DNA of 64,000 nt from contig JALWFG010000005.1 of the NCBI GenBank assembly GCA_027038965.1, positions 186,001 through 250,000 of the forward strand, written 5' to 3'. A model generated the notes under the pieces. That model was not told where the DNA came from. It made no database searches and was given only the letters and a program-made list of their open reading frames with translations. The DNA is from Candidatus Desulfofervidaceae bacterium (GTDB lineage: Bacteria; Desulfobacterota; Desulfofervidia; Desulfofervidales; Desulfofervidaceae). The translations under genes and the position numbers were made by a program. Below, piece after piece: positions 24,459-38,337 of the stretch (positions are counted from its first letter, which is position 1; every line of letters starts with the position of its first letter).

Positions 24459-26789
24459 TTGTTGAATCAAAAGGAATTTTTCGAGCAATTCAAACAAGCC
24501 GAAGCATATTTAAAGCAGGGTCAGCACGAAAAGGCCAAAAAGGTTTATGCCGATCTTCTCCAAGAATTAAATCAGATGCCTTCATCTGCTGAATTGGAAA
24601 GTAGAAAAAAACTTATTCAACAAATTATTAAACATATAGAGACAAAACAAAACGGTTCTTCTAATCAGATTTTGCAAAACCATATCAATTCAAGTAGTCC
24701 AAGTGAAATATACGAAAAGGCCCTAAGTTTTAAAGAATTAGGATTATATAAAGAGGCTATAGAGGAGTTTAAAAAGGCCTTAGCCAAAAGATATAAAATC
24801 ATCGATTCTATTCTAAACATTATTGAATGTTTTGAAAAGCAAGGGTTAAAAATAAAGGCCATTCAATTTTTAGAAAACCTTTTAAAAACCAGGCGTTACC
24901 GTAAAGAGGATATTGACCAGATAAAATACGAGTTGGGCAGGCTTTACGAAGAAGTTGGAGCCTATGCAAAGGCTATTTCTTGTTTCCAAGGAATTGAATC
25001 TAAGCAGATATTTCCTGACCTAGAAAAAAGGATAAAATCTCTTTATATAAAAATTAAAGGGGGAACAAGATTTGATTATCTCCTCCAAGAAGGACTCATT
25101 ACTAGAGAGGACCTCCAAAAGGCAGTAGCAGAATCTAAAAAGGAAAACAAAAGCGTGGAATATGTTCTTATTGAACGTTATGGCATACCTAAAAATGAAG
25201 TGGGCAAATCTTTGTCTCTCTTTTATGGCGTTCCCTTTATCGCCTTTGACCCTAGTATTCCTATCCCTGTAGATCTTATAAGCAATCTAAAATACAAATA
25301 TCTTAAAAGCAATTATTGGGTCCCTATAAAAAGAAAAGGGGATAAAATTGTCATTCTTATTGATGATCCTCATGATCTCACCCGAACAGATATTATCAAA
25401 AATCTGTTGCAGACCACAAAGTTAGAGTTTGTAGTAGGAATTCGTGAGGATATAGAAAATTTCATTGACTATTTTTGGGGACAAGCAGAAACAGAAGGAG
25501 AATCAATAAGGGAATTGGTCGAAGGATTTGAAGAATTTGAGGAAACTCCAGAAGAAATCCAAACAAAGGATGAAGAAGTTAAAGAAACAGATAGCAAGGT
25601 TGTCTTGTTTGTGAATAAGATGATCTTAGACGCTTGGAGAAAAAGGGCTTCAGACATCCATATAGAGCCATCTTCTAACACAAAAATGACAAGCATCCGC
25701 TTTCGAATTGATGGAATTTGCCAACCATATATTAATATTCCCAATAGCTTTACCAAGGCCGTAGTTTCTCGAATCAAGATTATGGCAAATTTAGATATTG
25801 CAGAAAAGAGGCTTCCCCAAGACGGCAAGATAAAATTTAAGCAAAAGGGCAAAGTGCTTTTGGAACTTCGGGTAGCAACACTGCCCACCGTAGGAGGACA
25901 TGAAGATGTAGTACTTAGGCTCTTGCATACAGGCACACCCCTGAAATTGAGTGAGCTAGGAATGTCTGAAGAAAATTTAAAAAGATTCCAAAAAATCATT
26001 ACTGAACCCTATGGTTTAGTTTTGGTTGTAGGCCCTACCGGATCTGGTAAAACTACAACGCTCCATTCTGCCTTGAGTTATATCAATACTCCTGATAAGA
26101 AGATTTGGACAGCAGAAGATCCAGTAGAAATTACCCAAGAAGGATTAAGACAAGTAGAGGTACATCCCAAAATAGGGCTTACCTTTGCCCGGGTAATGCG
26201 AGCCTTTTTAAGGGCCGATCCTGATGTAATTATGATTGGCGAAATGAGGGATGAGGAAACAGCTAATACTGGTATAGAGGCCTCTCTTACTGGTCATTTG
26301 GTTTTTTCCACCCTTCACACCAACAGTGCCCCAGAAACCGTTACCCGTCTTTTGGAAATGGGGCTTGACCCTCATAATTTTGCAGATTCTCTCTTAGGCA
26401 TTCTGGCTCAAAGATTAGTTCGAAAACTTTGTTCTAAATGTAAAGAGTCCTACCACCCTTCCAAAGAGGAATTCAATGAGATTGTAGAAGAATATGGAGC
26501 AGAACACTTTGGGCGCTTAGGAATAACTTATTCACCAAATTTAACCCTCTACCGGGCAAGGGGTTGTGAAGTATGTGGGAATACCGGATATAAGGGACGA
26601 ATCGGAATCCATGAATTACTAATTAACGATGAAGACATAAAAGTTTTGATTAAAAAGAAGGCCCCAACTGAAGAAATTAGAAAAAGGGCCATTCTCAATG
26701 GAATGACGACCTTAAAACAAGATGGGATTGCCAAGGTATTCAAAGGCATTACTGACATTAAAGAAGTAAGGCGGGTGTGCATTAAGTAG
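24459..26789 (+). CDS. PilB/GspE-family assembly ATPase with TPR-like N-terminus
   Basis: Hexameric ATPase of the type IV pilus / type II secretion class. The 776-residue protein has an unusual N-terminal helical part (about 1-190) with TPR-like repeats (SPSEIYEKALSFKELGLYKE). A GspE-N-like domain (about 205-330, IERYGIPKNEVGKSLSLFYG) and the motor domain follow. The motor has Walker A GPTGSGKTTTLHSAL, an Asp box, Walker B LRADPDVIMIGEMRDEET, a His box and a four-Cys zinc site (CSKC...CEVCGNTGYKG). A TTG start follows GGGGAG. No pilC, pilT or pilin gene is nearby. Confidence 0.9.
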   Translation: MLNQKEFFEQFKQAEAYLKQGQHEKAKKVYADLLQELNQMPSSAELESRKKLIQQIIKHIETKQNGSSNQILQNHINSSSPSEIYEKALSFKELGLYKEAIEEFKKALAKRYKIIDSILNIIECFEKQGLKIKAIQFLENLLKTRRYRKEDIDQIKYELGRLYEEVGAYAKAISCFQGIESKQIFPDLEKRIKSLYIKIKGGTRFDYLLQEGLITREDLQKAVAESKKENKSVEYVLIERYGIPKNEVGKSLSLFYGVPFIAFDPSIPIPVDLISNLKYKYLKSNYWVPIKRKGDKIVILIDDPHDLTRTDIIKNLLQTTKLEFVVGIREDIENFIDYFWGQAETEGESIRELVEGFEEFEETPEEIQTKDEEVKETDSKVVLFVNKMILDAWRKRASDIHIEPSSNTKMTSIRFRIDGICQPYINIPNSFTKAVVSRIKIMANLDIAEKRLPQDGKIKFKQKGKVLLELRVATLPTVGGHEDVVLRLLHTGTPLKLSELGMSEENLKRFQKIITEPYGLVLVVGPTGSGKTTTLHSALSYINTPDKKIWTAEDPVEITQEGLRQVEVHPKIGLTFARVMRAFLRADPDVIMIGEMRDEETANTGIEASLTGHLVFSTLHTNSAPETVTRLLEMGLDPHNFADSLLGILAQRLVRKLCSKCKESYHPSKEEFNEIVEEYGAEHFGRLGITYSPNLTLYRARGCEVCGNTGYKGRIGIHELLINDEDIKVLIKKKAPTEEIRKRAILNGMTTLKQDGIAKVFKGITDIKEVRRVCIK

Positions 26790-26807: not shown

Positions 26808-26954
26808 TTGAAAAAAGACAATTTCTCTAAGCAACTTGCCAAAAAAGAAGGTTTGTGGCAATATACTGGCACTCTTAATTTTAGTAAGGAGAATATTGAT
26901 TTTTGGAAACAGTACTTGTTACAGGCGCAACGGGATTTATTGGAAGTCACCTAG
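26808..26954 (+). CDS. possible 48-residue small ORF
   Basis: A TTG codon preceded by GGGGAG at good spacing opens a 48-codon frame containing [18 protein letters not shown]. It overlaps the first 52 bases of the next gene in another frame. It may be a small protein or a chance frame; no family was recognised. Confidence 0.22.
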   Translation: MKKDNFSKQLAKKEGLWQYTGTLNFSKENIDFWKQYLLQAQRDLLEVT

Positions 26955-27871
26955 TAGAAAGTCTCTTAAAACAAAATTATAAAGTCTATTGCCTTGTCAG
27001 AAACAAATCAATTTTGAAATGGTTAAAAAAAGTCCCTGTGGAAATTGTAGAAGGGGATTGTGAAAGTCCATCTTTAAAACTTCCCCATGTAGATTTTGTC
27101 TTCCACCTTGCTGGAAGAATCAAGGCAAAAGAGCCAGTCTCTTTTTATAAAACTAATCTTTATGGAACCATTAATCTATTGAGGATTATCTCCAAGCAGC
27201 GGCCTTTTGTAAAAAAGTTTGTCTTTGTGTCTACTCTTGCGGTCCACGGAAAAGATGATACTAAGATCATTCGCCCCGAACACTCCCCTTACCCTCGCAG
27301 CCATTATGCTAAGAGTAAATGGTTGGCAGAACAAGCCGTTTTGGCTTATAAAGGAACCTTCCCAGTAGTTATCTTTCGTCCCACTGCAATCTACGGTCCC
27401 CGAGATAAAGAATTTCTAAGTTATATCAAATGTATCAAACATGGAATAGCACCTGTTTTGAATTCTAAAGGAATTTTAAGTTTCTGTTATATTTCTGACC
27501 TAGTTAATTTTCTAATTGCCTCCATTCAAAAGGAGATTCCTAGCGGGAAGGCATTCCTCGTAAGTGATGGTCAAGCGTATACTTGGAAACAGGCCATTTT
27601 AAACATTGCTGAAGCTTTAGGCAAACACCCATTGATTCTCAATATCCCTAAACCATTAACTATGACTATGGCCTTCGGGTTCCAGAACATAAGTCATCTT
27701 TTAAACCAACCTTTTATTTTCTCTTGTGATAAATTAAAAGAAGTCTTCCAAAAAAGTTGGTTTTGTGATATTTCACAGTCATGCAATTTTTTAGACTATG
27801 TTCCTCAATATGATTTTAAAAAAGGTATAAAACGCACTATACATTGGTACCAAAAACAGGGGTGGTTATAA
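26903..27871 (+). CDS. extended SDR NAD(P)-dependent epimerase/reductase (CerR-like candidate)
   Basis: The 322-residue extended SDR has the N-terminal motif [28 protein letters not shown], the catalytic Ser/Tyr-Lys set (FVSTLAVHG and [11 protein letters not shown]) and [11 protein letters not shown]. The TTG start follows AAGGAG. It sits 2 bp before an alpha-oxoamine synthase and upstream of a GNAT protein. In Caulobacter an epimerase/dehydratase-like SDR (CerR) reduces the ketone in ceramide synthesis, so a 3-keto reductase role is inferred. Other sugar or steroid-like substrates are possible. Confidence 0.85.
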
Positions 27872-27873
27872 GA

Positions 27874-29055
27874 ATGGATATTTTTACCAAATGTTTTGTA
27901 TTTAAGAGCCAGGTAAATGGAGTAAAGGAAGCAGGCAGATATTTTTATTTTCGAAAAATAACCTCAGCTCAGGGTCCAGAGGTCATTTGTAAAGGTCGTA
28001 AGATGATCATGCTTGGGTCAAATAATTATCTAGGATTAACTGAAGACCCAAGGGTAAAAGAAGCGGCTATCAAGGCCACCCAAAAATATGGAACAGGATG
28101 TGCTGGCTCTAGACTTTTAAATGGGACTGTAGACATCCATGAAGCACTTGAAGCACAAATTGCTGAGTTTTTTGGAAAAGAAGCCGCTATTGTTTTCTCT
28201 ACAGGTATGCAAGCCAATCTAGGATGTATCCAGGCCTTAGTAAACCACAACGATATTGCTATTTTGGATAAATATGACCACGCCAGCATTATTGATGGAT
28301 GCCGTCTATCTATGGGGGAATTCAAACGTTACCCTCACAACGATATGGAATGTCTCAAAAAGCTCTTAGAGAAATATTCTGAGAAAGGGAAACTGATTAT
28401 TGTAGATGGCGTTTTCAGCATGGAAGGTGACTTGGCCAATCTGCCCGAAATTGTAAAGCTGGCCAAAAAATATAATGCTAGAACAATGGTAGATGATGCC
28501 CATGGAATTGGGGTAATAGGAGAAAACGGCAGAGGAACGGCTGAATATTTTAATCTCGAAGATGAAGTGGACATCATTATGGGCACTTTCAGCAAGTCTC
28601 TTGCCACTATTGGAGGGTTTATTGCTGCTAAGGCCGAAGTAGTAGAATATATAAAACATGTGGGGAGAGCCCTATTGTTCAGTGCTAGTTTAGCCCCTCC
28701 TCTAGCAGCCGCTGCTAGTCGAGCTCTAAAAATCATAAAAGAAGAGCCCGAAAGAAGACAAAGGCTTTGGAAAAATACCAAATTTTGGCTTAATGGTTTG
28801 AAGGATTTAGGATTTGATACCGGTTATAGCACTACTCCTATCGTGCCTGTTATTATTGGAGACGAAGAAAGAACATTTGAAATGTGCCATCTCCTGGAAG
28901 AAAATGGGGTCTTTGTAAGCCCTGTGGTGCCTCCTGCCGTGCCTCCTGGCAGGGCACTTCTTCGAACAAGTCTTATGGCCACTCATACCTTAGAGCAGTT
29001 AGAACGGGCCTTAGATGCCTTTGCCAAAACAGGCCGTATGCTGGGGATTATTTAA
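27874..29055 (+). CDS. PLP-dependent alpha-oxoamine synthase (serine palmitoyltransferase candidate)
   Basis: The enzyme condenses an amino acid with an acyl-thioester with loss of CO2. Family motifs are [36 protein letters not shown], the PLP-contact [10 protein letters not shown] and the Schiff-base Lys in [13 protein letters not shown]. Homologues include 2-amino-3-ketobutyrate CoA ligase, BioF and bacterial Spt. The neighbours (an SDR and a GNAT protein, no bio genes) favour Spt, making 3-ketosphinganine-type products; this is inference. ATG 27874 follows the previous stop by 2 bp. Confidence 0.88.
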
Positions 29056-30180
29056 ATGATTGAAATCAAAACAATTCAGGATTCAAGGGGAAAAAAGTCT
29101 TTTTTGTCTTTGCCGTGGCAGATCTATACGGGCGATCCTTATTGGGTCCCCCCATTTCTCCCAGATGTGGAATTCCTTTTAAATACCCATAAAAACCCGT
29201 TTTATGAACATGCCAAAATAGAGCTTTTTTTGGCCTACAAAGATAGAAAACCAGTTGGCAGAATTGCGGCTATTATAGATAAAAACTACAACGATTATCA
29301 TCAAGAAAAAACTGGCTGGTTTGGTTTTTTTGAAACCATAAACAATTCTGAAACCGTAAAAGCCCTTCTAGATGCCGTCCGAAATTGGCTGGCTAAACAA
29401 GGTATGAAAATTATGAGAGGGCCTGTAAATCCCTCTACAAACGAAACTTGTGGGCTGTTGGTAGAAGGTTTTGATGACCCCCCTACTTTTATGATGGCCT
29501 ATAATCCTCCTTATTACCAAATCCTTTTAGAAGAATATGGTTTAGAGAAAGTCAAAGACCTCCTGGCCTATGAAATGCCCCTCCCCTTTGCCTATAAGCC
29601 GTTAAAACGTCTAGAAAAAATTGCTATTCGAATAAACAATCGATACCCTCATCTGACGGTAAGAAATATAAATATGAAATATCTAAACGAAGAATTGGCC
29701 CGGATAAAGGAAGTGTATAACAGTGCTTGGGCACCCAATTGGGGATTTGTCCCTATGACAGATAAAGAAATTGATATCATGGCCAACCGTTTAAAACCCT
29801 TGGTTGTTCCAGAATTGGTGTGGCTGGCAGAGTGGAAGGACCACCCTATCGCCTTTCTCTTTTTTATCCCTGACTACTTTCAGGTGCTTAAGCACTTAAA
29901 AAACGGCAGGCTTTTCCCTTTAGGATGGTTAAAATTTCTCATTTACCGTCGCAGGATAAACAGAATAAGGGCCATTACTTTAGGAGTTAAAAAGGAATTT
30001 CACCACACTGGTGTCATTCCGTTACTGCTATATGAGGCAGGTAAAGCCCTAACCCAATTCCCTTATACACGGCTGGAATTCTCGTGGATTCTTGAAGATA
30101 ACCTGCCGGTCATTCGACTTACGGAATTCACTCCCTCTAAATTAACTAAAAGGTATCGAATCTATGAAACAAAGATATAA
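29056..30180 (+). CDS. GNAT-superfamily acyltransferase (bacterial ceramide synthase candidate)
   Basis: The 374-residue protein starts directly after the preceding stop. Visible features are PWQIYTGDPYWVPPFLPD, a central PVGRIAAIID strand typical of the GNAT fold, MRGPVNPSTNETCGLLVEGF, and a C-terminal GVKKEFHHTGVIPLLLYEAG segment resembling the acyl-CoA-binding motif. Bacterial ceramide synthases (bCerS) are GNAT-like proteins encoded near spt and cerR. From operon position I propose N-acylation of a sphingoid base. Biochemistry would be needed to separate it from other long GNAT proteins. Confidence 0.8.
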   Translation: MIEIKTIQDSRGKKSFLSLPWQIYTGDPYWVPPFLPDVEFLLNTHKNPFYEHAKIELFLAYKDRKPVGRIAAIIDKNYNDYHQEKTGWFGFFETINNSETVKALLDAVRNWLAKQGMKIMRGPVNPSTNETCGLLVEGFDDPPTFMMAYNPPYYQILLEEYGLEKVKDLLAYEMPLPFAYKPLKRLEKIAIRINNRYPHLTVRNINMKYLNEELARIKEVYNSAWAPNWGFVPMTDKEIDIMANRLKPLVVPELVWLAEWKDHPIAFLFFIPDYFQVLKHLKNGRLFPLGWLKFLIYRRRINRIRAITLGVKKEFHHTGVIPLLLYEAGKALTQFPYTRLEFSWILEDNLPVIRLTEFTPSKLTKRYRIYETKI

Positions 30181-30815: not shown

Positions 30816-31607
30816 TTAAGTTCTTTCCACCAATCTCTGTTTAATAAGTTGGGCCACCTTTTCTCCTGAAAGAAGCATCCCACCAAAGATTGGTCCCATA
30901 CGATAAGAACCAAAGGTGGCGTTGGCTGCCATACCTGTAACAAATATGCCAGGATAGGCCTCTTTAGTATTTTCTACCGTGGTAGTTTCGGCTATTTCTG
31001 CCCAAAGAGATTTTTCGCCTTCAATTTTGCCACTAGGAGTAAGCAGCCTCTCTCCCATCTTTCTTTCAATAATTTTCATTACCTCAGTCGTATGTCCTGT
31101 AGCATCAATTACATACTGGGCCCTTACTACCAGGGGGTCCACATGCAATCCTGTCATTTCTACAGGAGACCAATTAATAACCAGCCCGCAAACCCGCCCT
31201 TCTCTTACCACTACATCTTCCACAGAAATGCAGTTAAACACCTTAACCCCTGCTTGGCATGCCTTGGCACAAATTACCGTCGTGGCCTCAACGGCATCGG
31301 CGGTAAAATATTCCTCATTATCATTATAGGGAACAGCCTTTATTCCAAATTCATCTAAAATCCGCTTTCCTTCTTTTTGAACCACAATTTGATTAAACAT
31401 CATCCCCCCACCCCACATACCTCCACCAATACTCAACTTGCGTTCAAAGATAGCCGTGTTATAACCTGCTTGAGCCAAATAGTAAGAAGCAACCATCCCT
31501 GAAGGCCCTGCCCCCACAATGGCTACATCTAACCTTAAGGCCGATTTAAGCTTTTCGGTAAATCTTTCAATAATTGCCTGAGAAACCATTAATTCATCTA
31601 ATGGCAT
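30816..31607 (-). CDS. thi4: sulfide-dependent adenosine diphosphate thiazole synthase
   Basis: This Thi4-family enzyme makes the thiazole half of thiamin from NAD and glycine. It has the FAD/NAD-type fold ([31 protein letters not shown]) and [16 protein letters not shown] at the C-terminus. Yeast Thi4 uses an active-site Cys as a suicide sulfur donor. Here the equivalent segment reads GLHVDPLVV, with His as in archaeal Thi4, which implies free sulfide as sulfur source. That fits a sulfide-producing cell. It overlaps the YcaO gene by 14 bp. Confidence 0.93.
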
Positions 31608-33354
31608 AATATTTCTCCTCCATTTTTCTCAAATTTAGACGCACAAAATCCAAAGAGGGATTTAAATCCAATGCTTGTTTATAAAAGAAAACCGCCTCTT
31701 TTCCTTTACCCATCTTCTCTAAACTCAACCCAATATTGGCATAATCAATTGCCGAACTTGGCTCAAGTTTAATCGCTTTTTTAAAAAAGTCAACTGCCCT
31801 TTCATATTCACCCAAATGGAAATAACAGATACCAAGAAAGCTATAGATCTCTTTCTGTTCAGGATCACAGTCCAGGCTTTGCTGAAAAAAGGCTAGGGCC
31901 TTTTGATATTCCCCTGTTTCTTTATAACAGCACCCTAAATAAGCAAGAATAATGGCCCTGTCTTCTTCAACAGGCCGGCATTTAAGGGCCTTTTCAAACC
32001 GCACCTTGGCATTCGCATAATCGCCCTTTTCAAAGTGAAGCCTACCCTGGTAAAAATAAACCACGTAGTGGTCCGGAAAACAAGTTTTTAATTCCTCTAA
32101 TAAAAATCTTTGCCTTTCTCCACTAAATTGTTCAAAAGCAAGTTTTGTTAAAAAAAGTGGTAAGCTTGCCCCCTTTGCCCTTTGCCAAAAGTCAGCTCCT
32201 GGAACAATTACATACACTGCGGGGATATTTAACAGAGGATGGGTTAAGTCTACAATCAATACCTCTAAATCCACACGGCTCAAGCAAGAAACCATGTTTT
32301 CTATTTCCCTTTTTAAGTTGGCATCAGATACATCTGGCAGATCCGATAGACATTTAATTTCATCTCTTTTAAAGAGATAATCAATTTCTGCCAAATTATT
32401 TGGCTTGGGTAAACCGCTAGGTACGTAACCAGGGGAACCAAGAAAATCTCCTGCTAATTGAGCCGCTTCGGTTAAGGCCCTTATAGCCGCCTTCTCAGGA
32501 CTTGTATGGGTTCCGGCAGTAAAAACAATTTCACTAGTCACTTGGTCTTTTACTGTCGGTTCTGCTTCTGAGCAAGAATAGACCTTGGGATCATAGGCCA
32601 CCACCCCAACGGTAGGAATCCCGGTATTTAAGCTAAAATCTTTTAAATACACTTTGATACCTGCTTGGGAATATTTATCCAAAAGACTTTTAAGAATTTG
32701 AGCCTTAACAAAAGAAGTTTTGACTGTAGGCGTAAATATTTTTTGTTTGGCAATGAGGGCACACACATGCCTTTCTACTACCTCAGATAGACCTTGGACA
32801 ATAGCTTCTTCCAAAACATTGCCTGCTGAACTTCCATTAAATTCATTAATGGCCACGAACCAATCAAAGGGAATCCAAACTTCTTCCTGACGGGTTAAAT
32901 TATATCCCTTTGTCCATCGTAAGGGAAATTTTTCAAAAATAGACCTAGCTCGTTCTAAATTTTTTTGATCATCTACTGATTTGGCAAGCATATCTAAACC
33001 AAGGGCATTTCTGACCTTAGGATAAAGGGCCGTTTTAAAATTCCCTGAATTATGTTTAAAACTAAAATAAGAAAACCTCTCTACTAATTCCATAATAGCA
33101 CTGGCTTCGGCCTGCTCTGGGGTAACCCCTTTGCCCATTTGAAAGAACTTCCCTGTAATCTTTTTCCCTTCTTGGCCGTAAAAACTCACATAAACTGGAA
33201 TTCCTAAACGACCTTGGTCAATTCTTTCAGTTTTTTGGAAAATATTTAGCCCTATCTGTTTTAATTTTGTCTTTGCTTTAAGACAGGTTTCTTGAGGACT
33301 AACGACTTTATCTTGGTCCAAGGTATATGATTTAAAAACGTCTTTAAGACGCAT
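31594..33354 (-). CDS. YcaO-domain protein with C-terminal TPR repeats
   Basis: YcaO domain (about residues 30-400) with the ATP/Mg-binding Glu sets [28 protein letters not shown] and ALTEAAQ. The C-terminus (about 425-580) carries at least four tetratricopeptide repeats, such as [19 protein letters not shown] and [17 protein letters not shown]. YcaO proteins phosphorylate amide backbones or install thioamides using sulfide. Here it lies between a NIL-ferredoxin and Thi4 in a sulfide-assimilation cluster. The ATG at 33354 (GAGGA upstream) overlaps the preceding stop. The substrate is unknown; TPRs suggest a protein partner. Confidence 0.9.
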
Positions 33355-33766
33355 TGTTTTCCTCAGCAATTTCTATGGCCCCATAGGCGCATACTGAAAG
33401 GCAATGCCTACAACCAACACATTTTTCTTGGAAAAAAGAGACTCGCATCGTCTTTCTATCTACCACAAAACACTGACCAGGACATCCAGGGACACAGGCG
33501 GTACAATGAACACATTTATCCTCGCGCCAGTGAACATTTTCTACCACAGGCCTTATATCTACATTAATACTGCTCAAATAGGCCATTGCCCTTCTCAAAT
33601 CTTTCTCTTCTCCCTTTATTTCAAGGGTCAAACGTCCTTTTTTGCCAGGTGAAACACTAGCCTTTAAGATATTAATTGTCAGATTATAATCACTAATGAG
33701 ATGGTAAGTCACGGGTTGCTCTACGGCTTCAGGGGGGAATATTAAAAGATATTTTTTACTAACCAT
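33344..33766 (-). CDS. NIL-domain 4Fe-4S ferredoxin
   Basis: An N-terminal NIL domain (about 5-75) precedes a dicluster ferredoxin domain. The latter has CVHCTACVPGCPGQC and CVGCRHCLSVCAYGAI, enough for two 4Fe-4S clusters. In methanogens and many sulfate reducers this protein (MA1822-like) works with the DUF39 protein in reductive incorporation of sulfide into homocysteine. The DUF39 gene is immediately upstream with an 8-bp overlap, supporting the same role. ATG 33766 has AGGAG at proper spacing. Confidence 0.93.
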   Translation of the reverse strand: MVSKKYLLIFPPEAVEQPVTYHLISDYNLTINILKASVSPGKKGRLTLEIKGEEKDLRRAMAYLSSINVDIRPVVENVHWREDKCVHCTACVPGCPGQCFVVDRKTMRVSFFQEKCVGCRHCLSVCAYGAIEIAEENNAS

Positions 33767-34931
33767 GACCAACTCCTAACTCTTCTAATGTGACTGCAGG
33801 GCTGGTAAGGGTAAACTTACCTGCCTTAATCCACTCCTTTAATGTCTCGGCCACTTCCCTTGCCCTGGCATAAGAGGAATAGGTACCGGTAGGAACCCTT
33901 TTGCCCCCAATCTCTATTTCCCCAGTCTGCAGTTCTGCATAGGTCACTTCTTCTAAAACTTCTGTTTTCCCTTGAGGATAAGCCTCTCCATAATCCACTA
34001 CAGGCATAATGATATCTTCATTGGTAACCAAAGTATAGGAAAGAATCTCTTCATTTAAAATAGGGATTGGGATTCCTACTCCCAGGGCCAGACTAACCCC
34101 ATACCCCCGAAGAGACACTCCTCTAATCCAATAACTGTTCATCCCTTTTAAATCTCCTATCAAGGCCAAAGTCCCGGCTGGGCGCGTAGGAAGTCCCTTA
34201 TTTGTTCGAGGCACTTTAGGGCAATGTTGGGTCCCATGCCAAACAACATACCCTATCCCTCCTCCCAAAAATATCCGTGTGCCTACTCCTATGGTTTTGT
34301 AATAAGGATCATTAAATAAAGGAGAAAGCTGCCCTGCTGTAGCGTAAGAGGCATTACCCATCCTAGGCAATAAGGCCCCCATGTAGGTGTAAACCATTTT
34401 AGAACTTAAATTTACGGCCACATTATAATTTTGATAAACATTGCGAGGATTCCATAAAAAGGCGTTATTAACAGTATGGACGTTGATAAAACCGGTAAAT
34501 TCCTTCCTGGGATAACAGTGTGTTCCATAGGCATAGGCTTCTATCTTGATATCCTGGCCGGCCACAAATTCTTCAATCACATGTCCCCCACCATATTTAA
34601 ACATGCCGGGATAAACTTGGTTACGAGGGTCGTCTTCAGGGAGGGCTGTAGCTCCAAGGTAAAAATCAGCGGCTGCAAAACCTGGATAGGCAGGGACTCC
34701 ATTCAAAAGGACTTCTCCACCACCCAATTTAATAAGAGGTTGAGGTTGTTTTATATTTACCAACATCCCTGAAGAGCACATGGGGCTGAAGGTTCCTGTA
34801 GTAACTACATCTACTTCTTGGAGTGTCTTTTTAACCCCTTTTTCCTTTACTACTTCTATAATTTCCTCCGCGGTCACTACAACTGCCTTCCCTTGCTTTA
34901 TCCTTTCATTAATCTCCTCTATAGTTTTCAT
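33759..34931 (-). CDS. DUF39 homocysteine biosynthesis protein
   Basis: This is the MA1821-like protein that, with the NIL-ferredoxin, converts aspartate semialdehyde and sulfide to homocysteine, replacing O-acylhomoserine sulfhydrylation. About 390 residues; recognisable features are VTTGTFSPMCSSGMLVN with a conserved Cys, YGTHCYPRKEF, GGGIGYVVWHGTQHCPK and GVGIPIPILNEE. ATG 34931 is preceded by GGGAGG. It is first in a four-gene minus-strand cluster with a good promoter at 34959-34987. The asd gene for its substrate is at 42509-43525. Confidence 0.93.
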   Translation of the reverse strand: MKTIEEINERIKQGKAVVVTAEEIIEVVKEKGVKKTLQEVDVVTTGTFSPMCSSGMLVNIKQPQPLIKLGGGEVLLNGVPAYPGFAAADFYLGATALPEDDPRNQVYPGMFKYGGGHVIEEFVAGQDIKIEAYAYGTHCYPRKEFTGFINVHTVNNAFLWNPRNVYQNYNVAVNLSSKMVYTYMGALLPRMGNASYATAGQLSPLFNDPYYKTIGVGTRIFLGGGIGYVVWHGTQHCPKVPRTNKGLPTRPAGTLALIGDLKGMNSYWIRGVSLRGYGVSLALGVGIPIPILNEEILSYTLVTNEDIIMPVVDYGEAYPQGKTEVLEEVTYAELQTGEIEIGGKRVPTGTYSSYARAREVAETLKEWIKAGKFTLTSPAVTLEELGVGHG

Positions 34932-34958
34932 CCCCACCCTCCCATACTAGGTTTTATT

Positions 34959-35035: not shown

Positions 35036-35463
35036 CGGGAGTCAAAGCAGGCTATAAGCCGGGTTCTGTTCCTAAAAGGGGTTACCCCCTTCTAGGTAGT
35101 GGCCATTCCTCTGGGATGCCAGTTACCTGGCACCTCTAGCGACCTACCCGAGGGCATCGGGCGGGCCACCCTTACCTCCTTTATTAGGAGAACGCCCTCC
35201 TATTTGGTCTTGCTCCGGGTGGGGTTTGCCTAGCCAAAGGGGTCACCCCCTTTGCTGGTGAGCTCTTACCTCACCGTTTCACCCTTACCCGCATCCCGTG
35301 GAATAGTAAAGCTTATTCCACGGGACCGCTGGCGGTCTATTTTCTGTGGCACTTTCCTGGAGTCACCTCCACTGGGTGTTACCCAGCACCCTGCCCTGTG
35401 GAGCCCGGACTTTCCTCCCGTAGCTTTAAGCTACGAGCGGCCACCCACCTGCTTCAACTCCCG
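35036..35463 (-). ncRNA. rnpB: RNase P RNA (bacterial class A)
   Basis: Catalytic RNA of RNase P, which trims tRNA 5' leaders. On the minus strand the conserved 5' element GAGGAAAGTCCGGGCTCC follows the P3 region. GGTAAGGGTGAAACGGTG and AAGAGCTCACCAG (universal core) are in the middle, and ACAGAACCCGGCTTATAG is near the 3' end. Ends are set by the P1 helix, in which CGGGAGT..AAGCAGG pairs with CCTGCTT..ACTCCCG. A T-rich run follows the P1 3' strand and can act as terminator. The 5' end overlaps the last codons of rnhA. Confidence 0.95.
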
Positions 35464-37519: not shown

Positions 37520-37595
37520 TGGTGGGCCCACCAGGATTTGAACCTGGGACCTTCCGGTTATGAGCCGGTGGCTCTGCCAACTGAGCTATGGGCCC
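37520..37595 (-). tRNA. tRNA with CAU anticodon (Met elongator or Ile2)
   Basis: Complete 76-nt cloverleaf on the minus strand with encoded CCA. The acceptor stem is GGGCCCA/TGGGCCC, the D-arm AGCTCAGTTGGCAGAGC, the anticodon stem CCGG/CCGG with loop CTCATAA, and the T-arm CCAGGTTCAAATCCTGG. The anticodon is CAU. It is not initiator-like, since the acceptor starts with a proper pair. Elongator methionine is likely, but lysidine-modified Ile2 cannot be excluded by sequence alone. Confidence 0.93.
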
Positions 37596-37671
37596 TCATG
37601 GCTTAATAATACAACGAAAGGCCTCTTTGTCAAGCTTGCCATCTAAAAGAAAAGAGATTAAACTTCAATGC

Positions 37672-38337
37672 ATGAAACCAGAGTCTTGGCAAAAATTAGT
37701 CCTTCCAGTATCCTCTCATTTAATAAATATTTGGTTTAAAACCTGTCATATCATCACTAAATATGAAACTCCCCCTCCACCACAGGCCATATACGTAGGT
37801 TGGCATTCTATTCTACCCGCCTTTCTATACTTAGGCCAAAAGAAAAACATGGCCACGATGGTAAGTAAGAGTAAAGATGGAGACCTAATCACTCCCTTCT
37901 TTAAGCGGTTGGGGTTTGAGGTCGTCAGAGGTTCACGGTATAAGGGTAGCACAAGTGCCCTTAAGGGGATGTTAAGGGTGATTAAAAAAGGATTAAATGT
38001 GGGATTGGCCATTGATGGTTCGCGGGGACCGGCAAGAAAACCCCAAGGGGGGGCAGTTTTTCTGGCCATGTATACTGGTTTACCCTTAATTGGGGTAAGT
38101 GTGGCTTACAGCCATTACATAACCTTGCCTACTTGGGATAAAATGGAAATCCCGTTGCCTTTTTCCAAAATGGGAATCGTCTTTGGCACTCCTATTTTTT
38201 TTCCTTCTAAAATGGGGAAAAAAAACTTTCAAAAAAAATTGCTATTTGTTGAAGAATATATGTTTAAAATTCACCATCTGGCCAAAAATTTGGTTAATTC
38301 TCCCCAAGATACCGCTTCCAAATTTGGTTTATTTTAG
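37672..38337 (+). CDS. DUF374 lysophospholipid acyltransferase-like protein
   Basis: The 221-residue protein shows YVGWHSILPAFLYL (His of the HX4D-like region), STSALKGMLRVIKKGLNVGLAIDGSRGPARKP and GLPLIGVSVAY. This is the pattern of DUF374/LPLAT-like proteins near lipid A biosynthesis genes. It is probably membrane-associated and may acylate a lipid A or glycerolipid precursor. ATG 37672 is chosen because the frame upstream runs into the opposite-strand tRNA. The 3' end overlaps convergent glnE by 44 bp. Confidence 0.85.
   Translation: MKPESWQKLVLPVSSHLINIWFKTCHIITKYETPPPPQAIYVGWHSILPAFLYLGQKKNMATMVSKSKDGDLITPFFKRLGFEVVRGSRYKGSTSALKGMLRVIKKGLNVGLAIDGSRGPARKPQGGAVFLAMYTGLPLIGVSVAYSHYITLPTWDKMEIPLPFSKMGIVFGTPIFFPSKMGKKNFQKKLLFVEEYMFKIHHLAKNLVNSPQDTASKFGLF

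Follow-up and report, generated by a model that had tools for sequence, protein, structure and literature searches.

Do three adjoining genes in a sulfate-reducing bacterium encode a route to ceramides? The question is raised by a 64 kb stretch (hereafter, the window) of a 2.19 Mb, 21-contig assembly of a Candidatus Desulfofervidaceae bacterium. Here, an extended short-chain dehydrogenase/reductase (SDR; 26903–27871, 322 aa, TTG start), a PLP-dependent alpha-oxoamine synthase (AOS; 27874–29055, 393 aa) and a tandem-GNAT N-acyltransferase (29056–30180, 374 aa) follow one another on the + strand with gaps of 2 bp and 0 bp. An initial annotation had proposed three tightly linked genes at 26903–30180, and all of the open reading frames (ORFs) were indeed found at these places, on this strand and with this spacing (the AOS ORF as listed starts at 27844; the ATG used is at 27874). 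We conclude that the three genes very probably constitute a compact operon for the backbone of a ceramide or 1-deoxyceramide in this sulfate reducer, on the basis of how the genes are arranged, their homology and phylogenetic placement, the active-site residues, and co-occurrence. Sphingolipids, whose backbone this is, are membrane lipids more familiar from animals and plants; the gene set itself is known from bacteria, but its occurrence in this lineage was unexpected.

Family placement of the synthase

A PDB sequence search with the AOS returned the serine palmitoyltransferase (Spt) chains 3a2b and 8guh on top (431 bits each), and the match to 3a2b, the Spt of Sphingobacterium multivorum, covers AOS residues 13–385. 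The best non-Spt chain scored 308 bits, E. coli Kbl 281 bits, the cysteate acyltransferase 28eh 272 bits, and E. coli BioF 223 bits. NCBIfam assignments to BioF (TIGR00858, 411.6 bits, cut-off 426.45) and to Kbl (TIGR01822, 347 bits, cut-off 493; glycine C-acetyltransferase NF005394, 430 bits, cut-off 460) were rejected.

The initial annotation had pointed to placement among Spt, Kbl and BioF as the way to check the synthase. In a maximum likelihood tree of 91 rows (77 Spt-side, 14 others), the AOS fell into the 77-row Spt clade with a support of 100/100 and a stem of 0.62. This clade includes the crystallized Spts of Sphingobacterium (3a2b) and Sphingomonas (2x8u), the E. coli-type Spt, and Myxococcus; E. 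coli Kbl, E. coli BioF, the Thermus AOS, and the second AOS of the window's own genome lie outside it. A second AOS tree agrees, with a 30-row Spt clade supported by a Shimodaira–Hasegawa-like approximate likelihood ratio test value of 99. Approximately unbiased (AU) tests rejected a grouping of the window AOS family with the BioF-type rows (p 1e-42), and likewise one with E. coli Kbl and the Thermus AOS (p 1e-7); these groupings and a third, broader one considered below were all chosen after the tree had been inspected. A synthase branching within Kbl or BioF, the outcome that the initial annotation named as refuting its reading, was therefore not obtained. Inside the Spt clade, the window family joins other Desulfobacterota first; Nitrospirota and Methylomirabilota come next (24 rows, 92/87).

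The genome's second AOS scored 488 bits against the bioF cut-off of 426, as a true BioF, and is flanked by birA-, bioD-, bioA-, and bioB-like ORFs (names read by eye). Biotin is thus catered for elsewhere in the genome, by a BioF in a separate biotin cluster; a third AOS was not found in the genome at E 1e-20. The claim that genes for biotin synthesis or threonine catabolism are absent nearby holds for the ORFs of 20–38 kb; the biotin cluster belongs to the same contig but lies at a distance of ~104 kb. The high scores on broad AOS models (NF005394, 430 bits; bioF, 412 bits), both under cut-off, would fit a BioF or Kbl that stands beside unrelated genes by accident, but the tree and the AU tests, the separate BioF in its biotin cluster, and the conserved trio and its co-occurrence (see below) make this extremely improbable.

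At all seven active-site positions compared (N50, H136, D207, H210, K241, A271, and R364), the AOS has the same state as the Sphingobacterium Spt. The latter belongs to a neighboring subclade in the tree. The PLP lysine K241, the stacking histidine H136, the D207/H210 pair, and the substrate arginine R364 are common to all AOS rows and hence do not discriminate among them. By contrast, A271 aligns with Lys281 of SulA, a position described as the sole difference between Spt, which has alanine here, and SulA (PMC9304779). The column is alanine in 95/95 Spt-side rows, and threonine in 50 and asparagine in three of the other rows (n = 53), in a census that pools the rows of two trees and counts some genes twice. 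A motif picked after the alignment had been viewed, GSR..[NT]G....H, was present in 74/77 and 26/30 Spt-side rows of the two trees, and in 0/14 and 0/42 of the other rows.

These residues bear on a reading in which the AOS is a cysteate acyltransferase of the SulA type and the operon leads to capnine and sulfonolipids. The enzymes share a fold family, and the PDB cysteate acyltransferase 28eh was matched with 272 bits; nevertheless, with alanine where SulA has Lys281 and with 431 bits for the Spt chains, we consider this reading highly unlikely.

The acyltransferase and the reductase

The third protein of the trio, ACYLTRANSFERASE (29056–30180), matched nothing in the sequence searches of Pfam, NCBIfam, and PDB. 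A tblastn search against plasmids returned 44 records, including E. coli YghO (35.2% identity over 100% of the length) and a homologue from Sphingomonas parapaucimobilis (34.3% over 100%), the loci of which each hold an AOS, an acyl carrier protein (ACP), and an SDR. The corresponding aca gene is yghO ECD_02850 in E. coli BL21 and CC_1154 in Caulobacter (PMC9386255). Judged by its sequence, the third protein is a full-length homologue of YghO, itself a proposed ceramide N-acyltransferase.

Its identification in the initial annotation as GNAT-type, invisible to the Pfam, NCBIfam, and PDB sequence searches, was borne out by the predicted structure. An AlphaFold2 model built with 47 sequences (pLDDT 92.5, pTM 0.90) found its best solved matches among tandem-repeat GNATs (Z 20–23, root-mean-square deviation 3.1–4.8, 279–305 aligned), and Foldseek likewise returned tandem GNATs. 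N-myristoyltransferases were also among the fold matches (Z ~15); the fold says nothing on the substrate, and the absence of a bacterial ceramide synthase among the fold-search matches does not count against one. We noted that paralogues of the third protein, ~44–50% identical to it, exist in G002 (L028), G003 (L027), and G005 (L026/L029), with no AOS beside those that were read. The GNAT family must therefore be broader than ceramide synthesis.

The first gene was described from the outset as an extended SDR, and its product matches Pfam Epimerase (PF01370) with 122.5 bits. The hopanoid epimerase HpnA was considered and rejected (113 bits, far under the cut-off of 368). Within its own genome, the window SDR is the top of seven matches to the SDR of a Myxococcus trio (133 bits, versus 46 bits for the next) and the top of two matches to the SDR of the E. 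coli spt locus (87 versus 64 bits). Because the SDR family is vast, percent identity counts as weak evidence here, and we propose the protein as a CerR-like, putative 3-keto-(dihydro)ceramide reductase on the strength of its top rank within the genome. CerR has been located in the periplasm (PMC11087976). No signal peptide was visible by eye in the window SDR, whose Rossmann motif lies right at the protein start.

The trio across genomes

Next, we consider whether the three genes travel together. Surroundings were fetched for 18 of the 23 relatives with a match to the GNAT. A contiguous SDR-AOS-GNAT trio was found in 7/18, namely in all four other family genomes examined (G001–G004) and in the more distant G052, G015, and G012 of the phylum, and the trio is present in 5/5 Candidatus Desulfofervidaceae genomes examined. 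Two relatives (G025 and G039) have a rearranged trio, G009 has AOS-GNAT at a contig end, and the remaining 8/18 have the GNAT alone on the stretch. In G005, of the same order, the SDR adjoins the AOS, and no GNAT follows them on that contig. Since the order SDR-AOS-GNAT is kept in 4/4 other family genomes and in three distant ones, the linkage is not due to chance. The genes flanking the trio are not shared within the family, hence the trio behaves as a self-standing unit.

Co-occurrence was scored in 59 genomes (the window's own and its relatives), with all listed AOS matches placed by phylogeny. The GNAT occurs in 24/59 and a Spt-clade AOS in 19/59; 18 genomes have both, one has the AOS only (G023), six have the GNAT only, and 34 have neither. 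The GNAT thus accompanies the Spt-clade AOS in 18/19 genomes that have it, versus 6/40 that do not (Fisher p 3.4e-9, uncorrected for relatedness). A wider scan of named genomes with the GNAT family kept 80 of 579 loci, many of them short contigs. All three genes were found at 43 of these loci, AOS and GNAT at 12, and SDR and GNAT at one. An AOS therefore lies on the same stretch as the GNAT in 55/80 loci, which span many phyla.

The arrangement resembles known systems to differing degrees. In Myxococcus dinghuensis (L124), the three genes are adjacent and in one direction, as in the window, but in the order AOS-GNAT-SDR; the AOS and the GNAT are 55% and 43% identical to those of the window. 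Trios in the order AOS-GNAT-SDR were also seen on records of the plasmid collection from two Actinomycetota, Streptomyces (L054:8763–12045) and Rubrobacter (L055:6707–10074); a condensation-domain gene follows the Streptomyces trio. By description, the window's trio is like the Black Sea 'Spt-like clade B', in which Spt-related AOS genes have CerR and bCerS homologues close by, Desulfobacterota included (PMC11334938). By contrast, that report describes the three genes as lying apart in Bacteroidota. The same study, published in 2024, applied the same trio logic and found Spt-like genes in 38 phyla.

Several observations weigh against the operon reading. The top NCBIfam model for the AOS, the Bacteroidetes-type Spt equivalog NF047600, gave 552.4 bits, below its cut-off of 640 (the Myxococcus AOS, at 510 bits, is likewise under it). 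When the window family was held together with all 14 non-Spt rows, the AU test did not reject the grouping (p 0.15). A window family that branches first on the Spt side would give this split as well, and the sharper BioF and Kbl tests were therefore run. The identity of the SDR to other CerR candidates is ~25–32% outside the phylum. The GNAT occurs without a Spt-clade AOS in 6/59 genomes, and alone in 24/80 loci of the wider scan, some of them cut by contig ends. Lastly, the assayed Spts lie in a neighboring subclade of the 91-row tree (46 rows, 83/95), and the exact branch of the window AOS within the Spt clade is insecure, given the moderate supports on either side.

This last point is what a different product would build on: an Spt-like enzyme with changed substrate use might make another N-acylated long-chain aminoketone or aminoalcohol lipid that is not a sphingolipid. 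The window subclade (Desulfobacterota, Nitrospirota, Methylomirabilota, and others) has no row that is known to have been assayed, and its tie to the assayed Spts is moderately supported (its own 24 rows have 92/87, the opposite side 83/95). Nevertheless, the gene families are those of characterized ceramide loci and the active-site residues are the same, and we regard such a lipid as unlikely.

Proposed pathway, host, and meaning

For the proposed ceramide operon, the substrates, the order of steps, the acyl donor, the head group, and the location of the product are inferred. The Spt-like AOS would form a 3-keto long-chain base by condensing a long-chain acyl thioester with L-serine (or L-alanine), the tandem-GNAT of the bCerS/YghO type would then place a second acyl chain on the amino group of this base, and the CerR-like SDR would reduce the 3-keto group to give a dihydroceramide or a 1-deoxy-dihydroceramide for the envelope. 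This sequence follows Caulobacter, for which acylation has been argued to precede reduction (PMC11087976).

The initial annotation had likened the trio to the enzyme set of Caulobacter. The likeness stands for the Spt, SDR, and YghO-type families, which are common to the genes of Caulobacter and E. coli BL21 (spt, acpR, aasR, epi/cerR, and aca/bcerS; PMC9386255); it fails for the five-gene route as a whole, since the window genome has no acpR. Moreover, the window has one tight SDR-AOS-GNAT unit, whereas an acp and an acyl-AMP ligase gene are interleaved in the E. coli-type locus. Rhodobacterial Spts draw on a dedicated AcpR charged by AasR, and the Bacteroidetes and delta-proteobacterial Spts were grouped apart from them (PMC9386255). 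A dedicated ACP, which the initial annotation had suggested looking for, was not found, there being a single match to PF00550 (PP-binding) in the whole genome. With no AcpR, the likely donor would be acyl-CoA or the single housekeeping acyl-ACP. The genome has 10 AMP-binding matches, several of them of the acyl-CoA-synthetase type; the seven strong matches are candidates for the supply of acyl-CoA.

Among the listed ORFs next to the trio, none was recognized as a head-group gene. For a ceramide-kinase-like gene, the genome offers a sole, weak DAGK_cat match (25.7 bits); it also has four CDP-alcohol phosphotransferases, which we leave unassigned, and we put forward no head group. The lack of a recognized head-group gene and the unconserved flanks would fit a variant in which the AOS prefers alanine (or glycine) over serine and the true products are 1-deoxyceramides without an ordinary head group. 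Consistent with this variant, Spt is able to use alanine, and 1-deoxyceramides of the upper euxinic zone of the Black Sea were linked to abundant Desulfobacterota and/or Bacteroidota (PMC11334938); the seven active-site positions shared with the Sphingobacterium Spt speak against it, and we hold it to be possible but the less probable outcome.

As for the host, the assembly encodes dsrA (611 bits, cut-off 393) and lpxC (364 bits); this gene content suggests a sulfate reducer that has a lipopolysaccharide-type outer membrane. This agrees with the sulfate-reducer-like organism assumed at the start. The claim that sphingolipids would be notable in such a host is weaker than supposed, as Desulfobacterota were among those named in 2024 as probably making 1-deoxyceramides and the sulfono forms of these (PMC11334938). 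Both this kind of gene system and its occurrence in the phylum are thus already published, since that study credits Desulfobacterota with Spt-like genes as well as probable sphingolipids. A literature search, which did not cover subscription journals, found no paper that has Desulfofervidus and sphingolipids together; accordingly, Desulfofervidus is not named in the main text of PMC11334938. The terms 'sphingo', 'ceramide', and 'lipid' are absent from the main text of a comparative paper on the syntrophs (PMC10553843). Collectively, the operon is real and well supported, ordinary in kind, and mildly surprising in its host.

Around the trio, a Shine-Dalgarno-like AAGGAG was read at 26886–26891 (+), 11 bases 5' of the TTG of the SDR. 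Upstream, across a 113-bp gap, lies a PilB/GspE-type secretion ATPase (24459–26789, +) with an N-terminal tetratricopeptide repeat (TPR)-like part and an MshEN domain, which does not adjoin the trio in relatives; the downstream neighbor is a hypothetical gene on the opposite strand. A scan gave 13 promoter-like sites (17.2 in shuffles) and eight terminator-like sites (7.3 in shuffles), which speaks neither for nor against an operon; an Rfam search found no RNA element at the trio. Further along, Rfam detected an RNase P class A RNA (35039–35456, –; 331 bits) and a tRNA (37523–37595, –). A DUF374 protein (37588–38337, +; PF04028, 80 bits), which we take to be of a lysophospholipid-acyltransferase-like family, lies 7.4 kb from the trio. 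The genes at 30816–34937 (–) presumably encode a Thi4-like/FAD protein, a YcaO-like protein with TPRs, a small ferredoxin with a NIL-like part, and a HcyBio-like protein, and would resemble a sulfur-assimilation or homocysteine cluster.

The best-known Candidatus Desulfofervidaceae are thermophilic partners of methane- and alkane-oxidizing archaea. The Desulfofervidales are described as largely thermophilic, with HotSeep-1 as the syntrophic partner of ANME-1 (PMC10553843). Cultured relatives grow at 50–60°C as partners in methane oxidation, and cultures containing HotSeep-1 have been reported at 37, 50, and 60°C (PMC9539880). The window's own organism may well be thermophilic too, and its Spt, bCerS, and CerR enzymes, free of a dedicated ACP, are presumably thermostable. 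Producers have not been identified in reports of sphingolipids from hot anoxic sediments: bacterial phosphosphingolipids were found concentrated at 40–80°C with no thermophilic maker assigned, and Sphingobacteria or Bacteroidetes were named as their sources by way of suggestion only (PMC5572230). The trio may provide a concrete candidate producer for the sphingolipids of such hot anoxic sediments. We tentatively suggest that sphingolipids could be a family-wide membrane trait of Candidatus Desulfofervidaceae, made through a minimal route of three genes that needs no dedicated carrier protein and uses an Spt from a subclade of which no member in our tree is known to have been assayed, and that the family could be one unrecognized source of the phosphosphingolipids that peak in 40–80°C sediments. 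If true, these lipids would serve to mark the bacterial partner where methane is oxidized anaerobically in hot settings.

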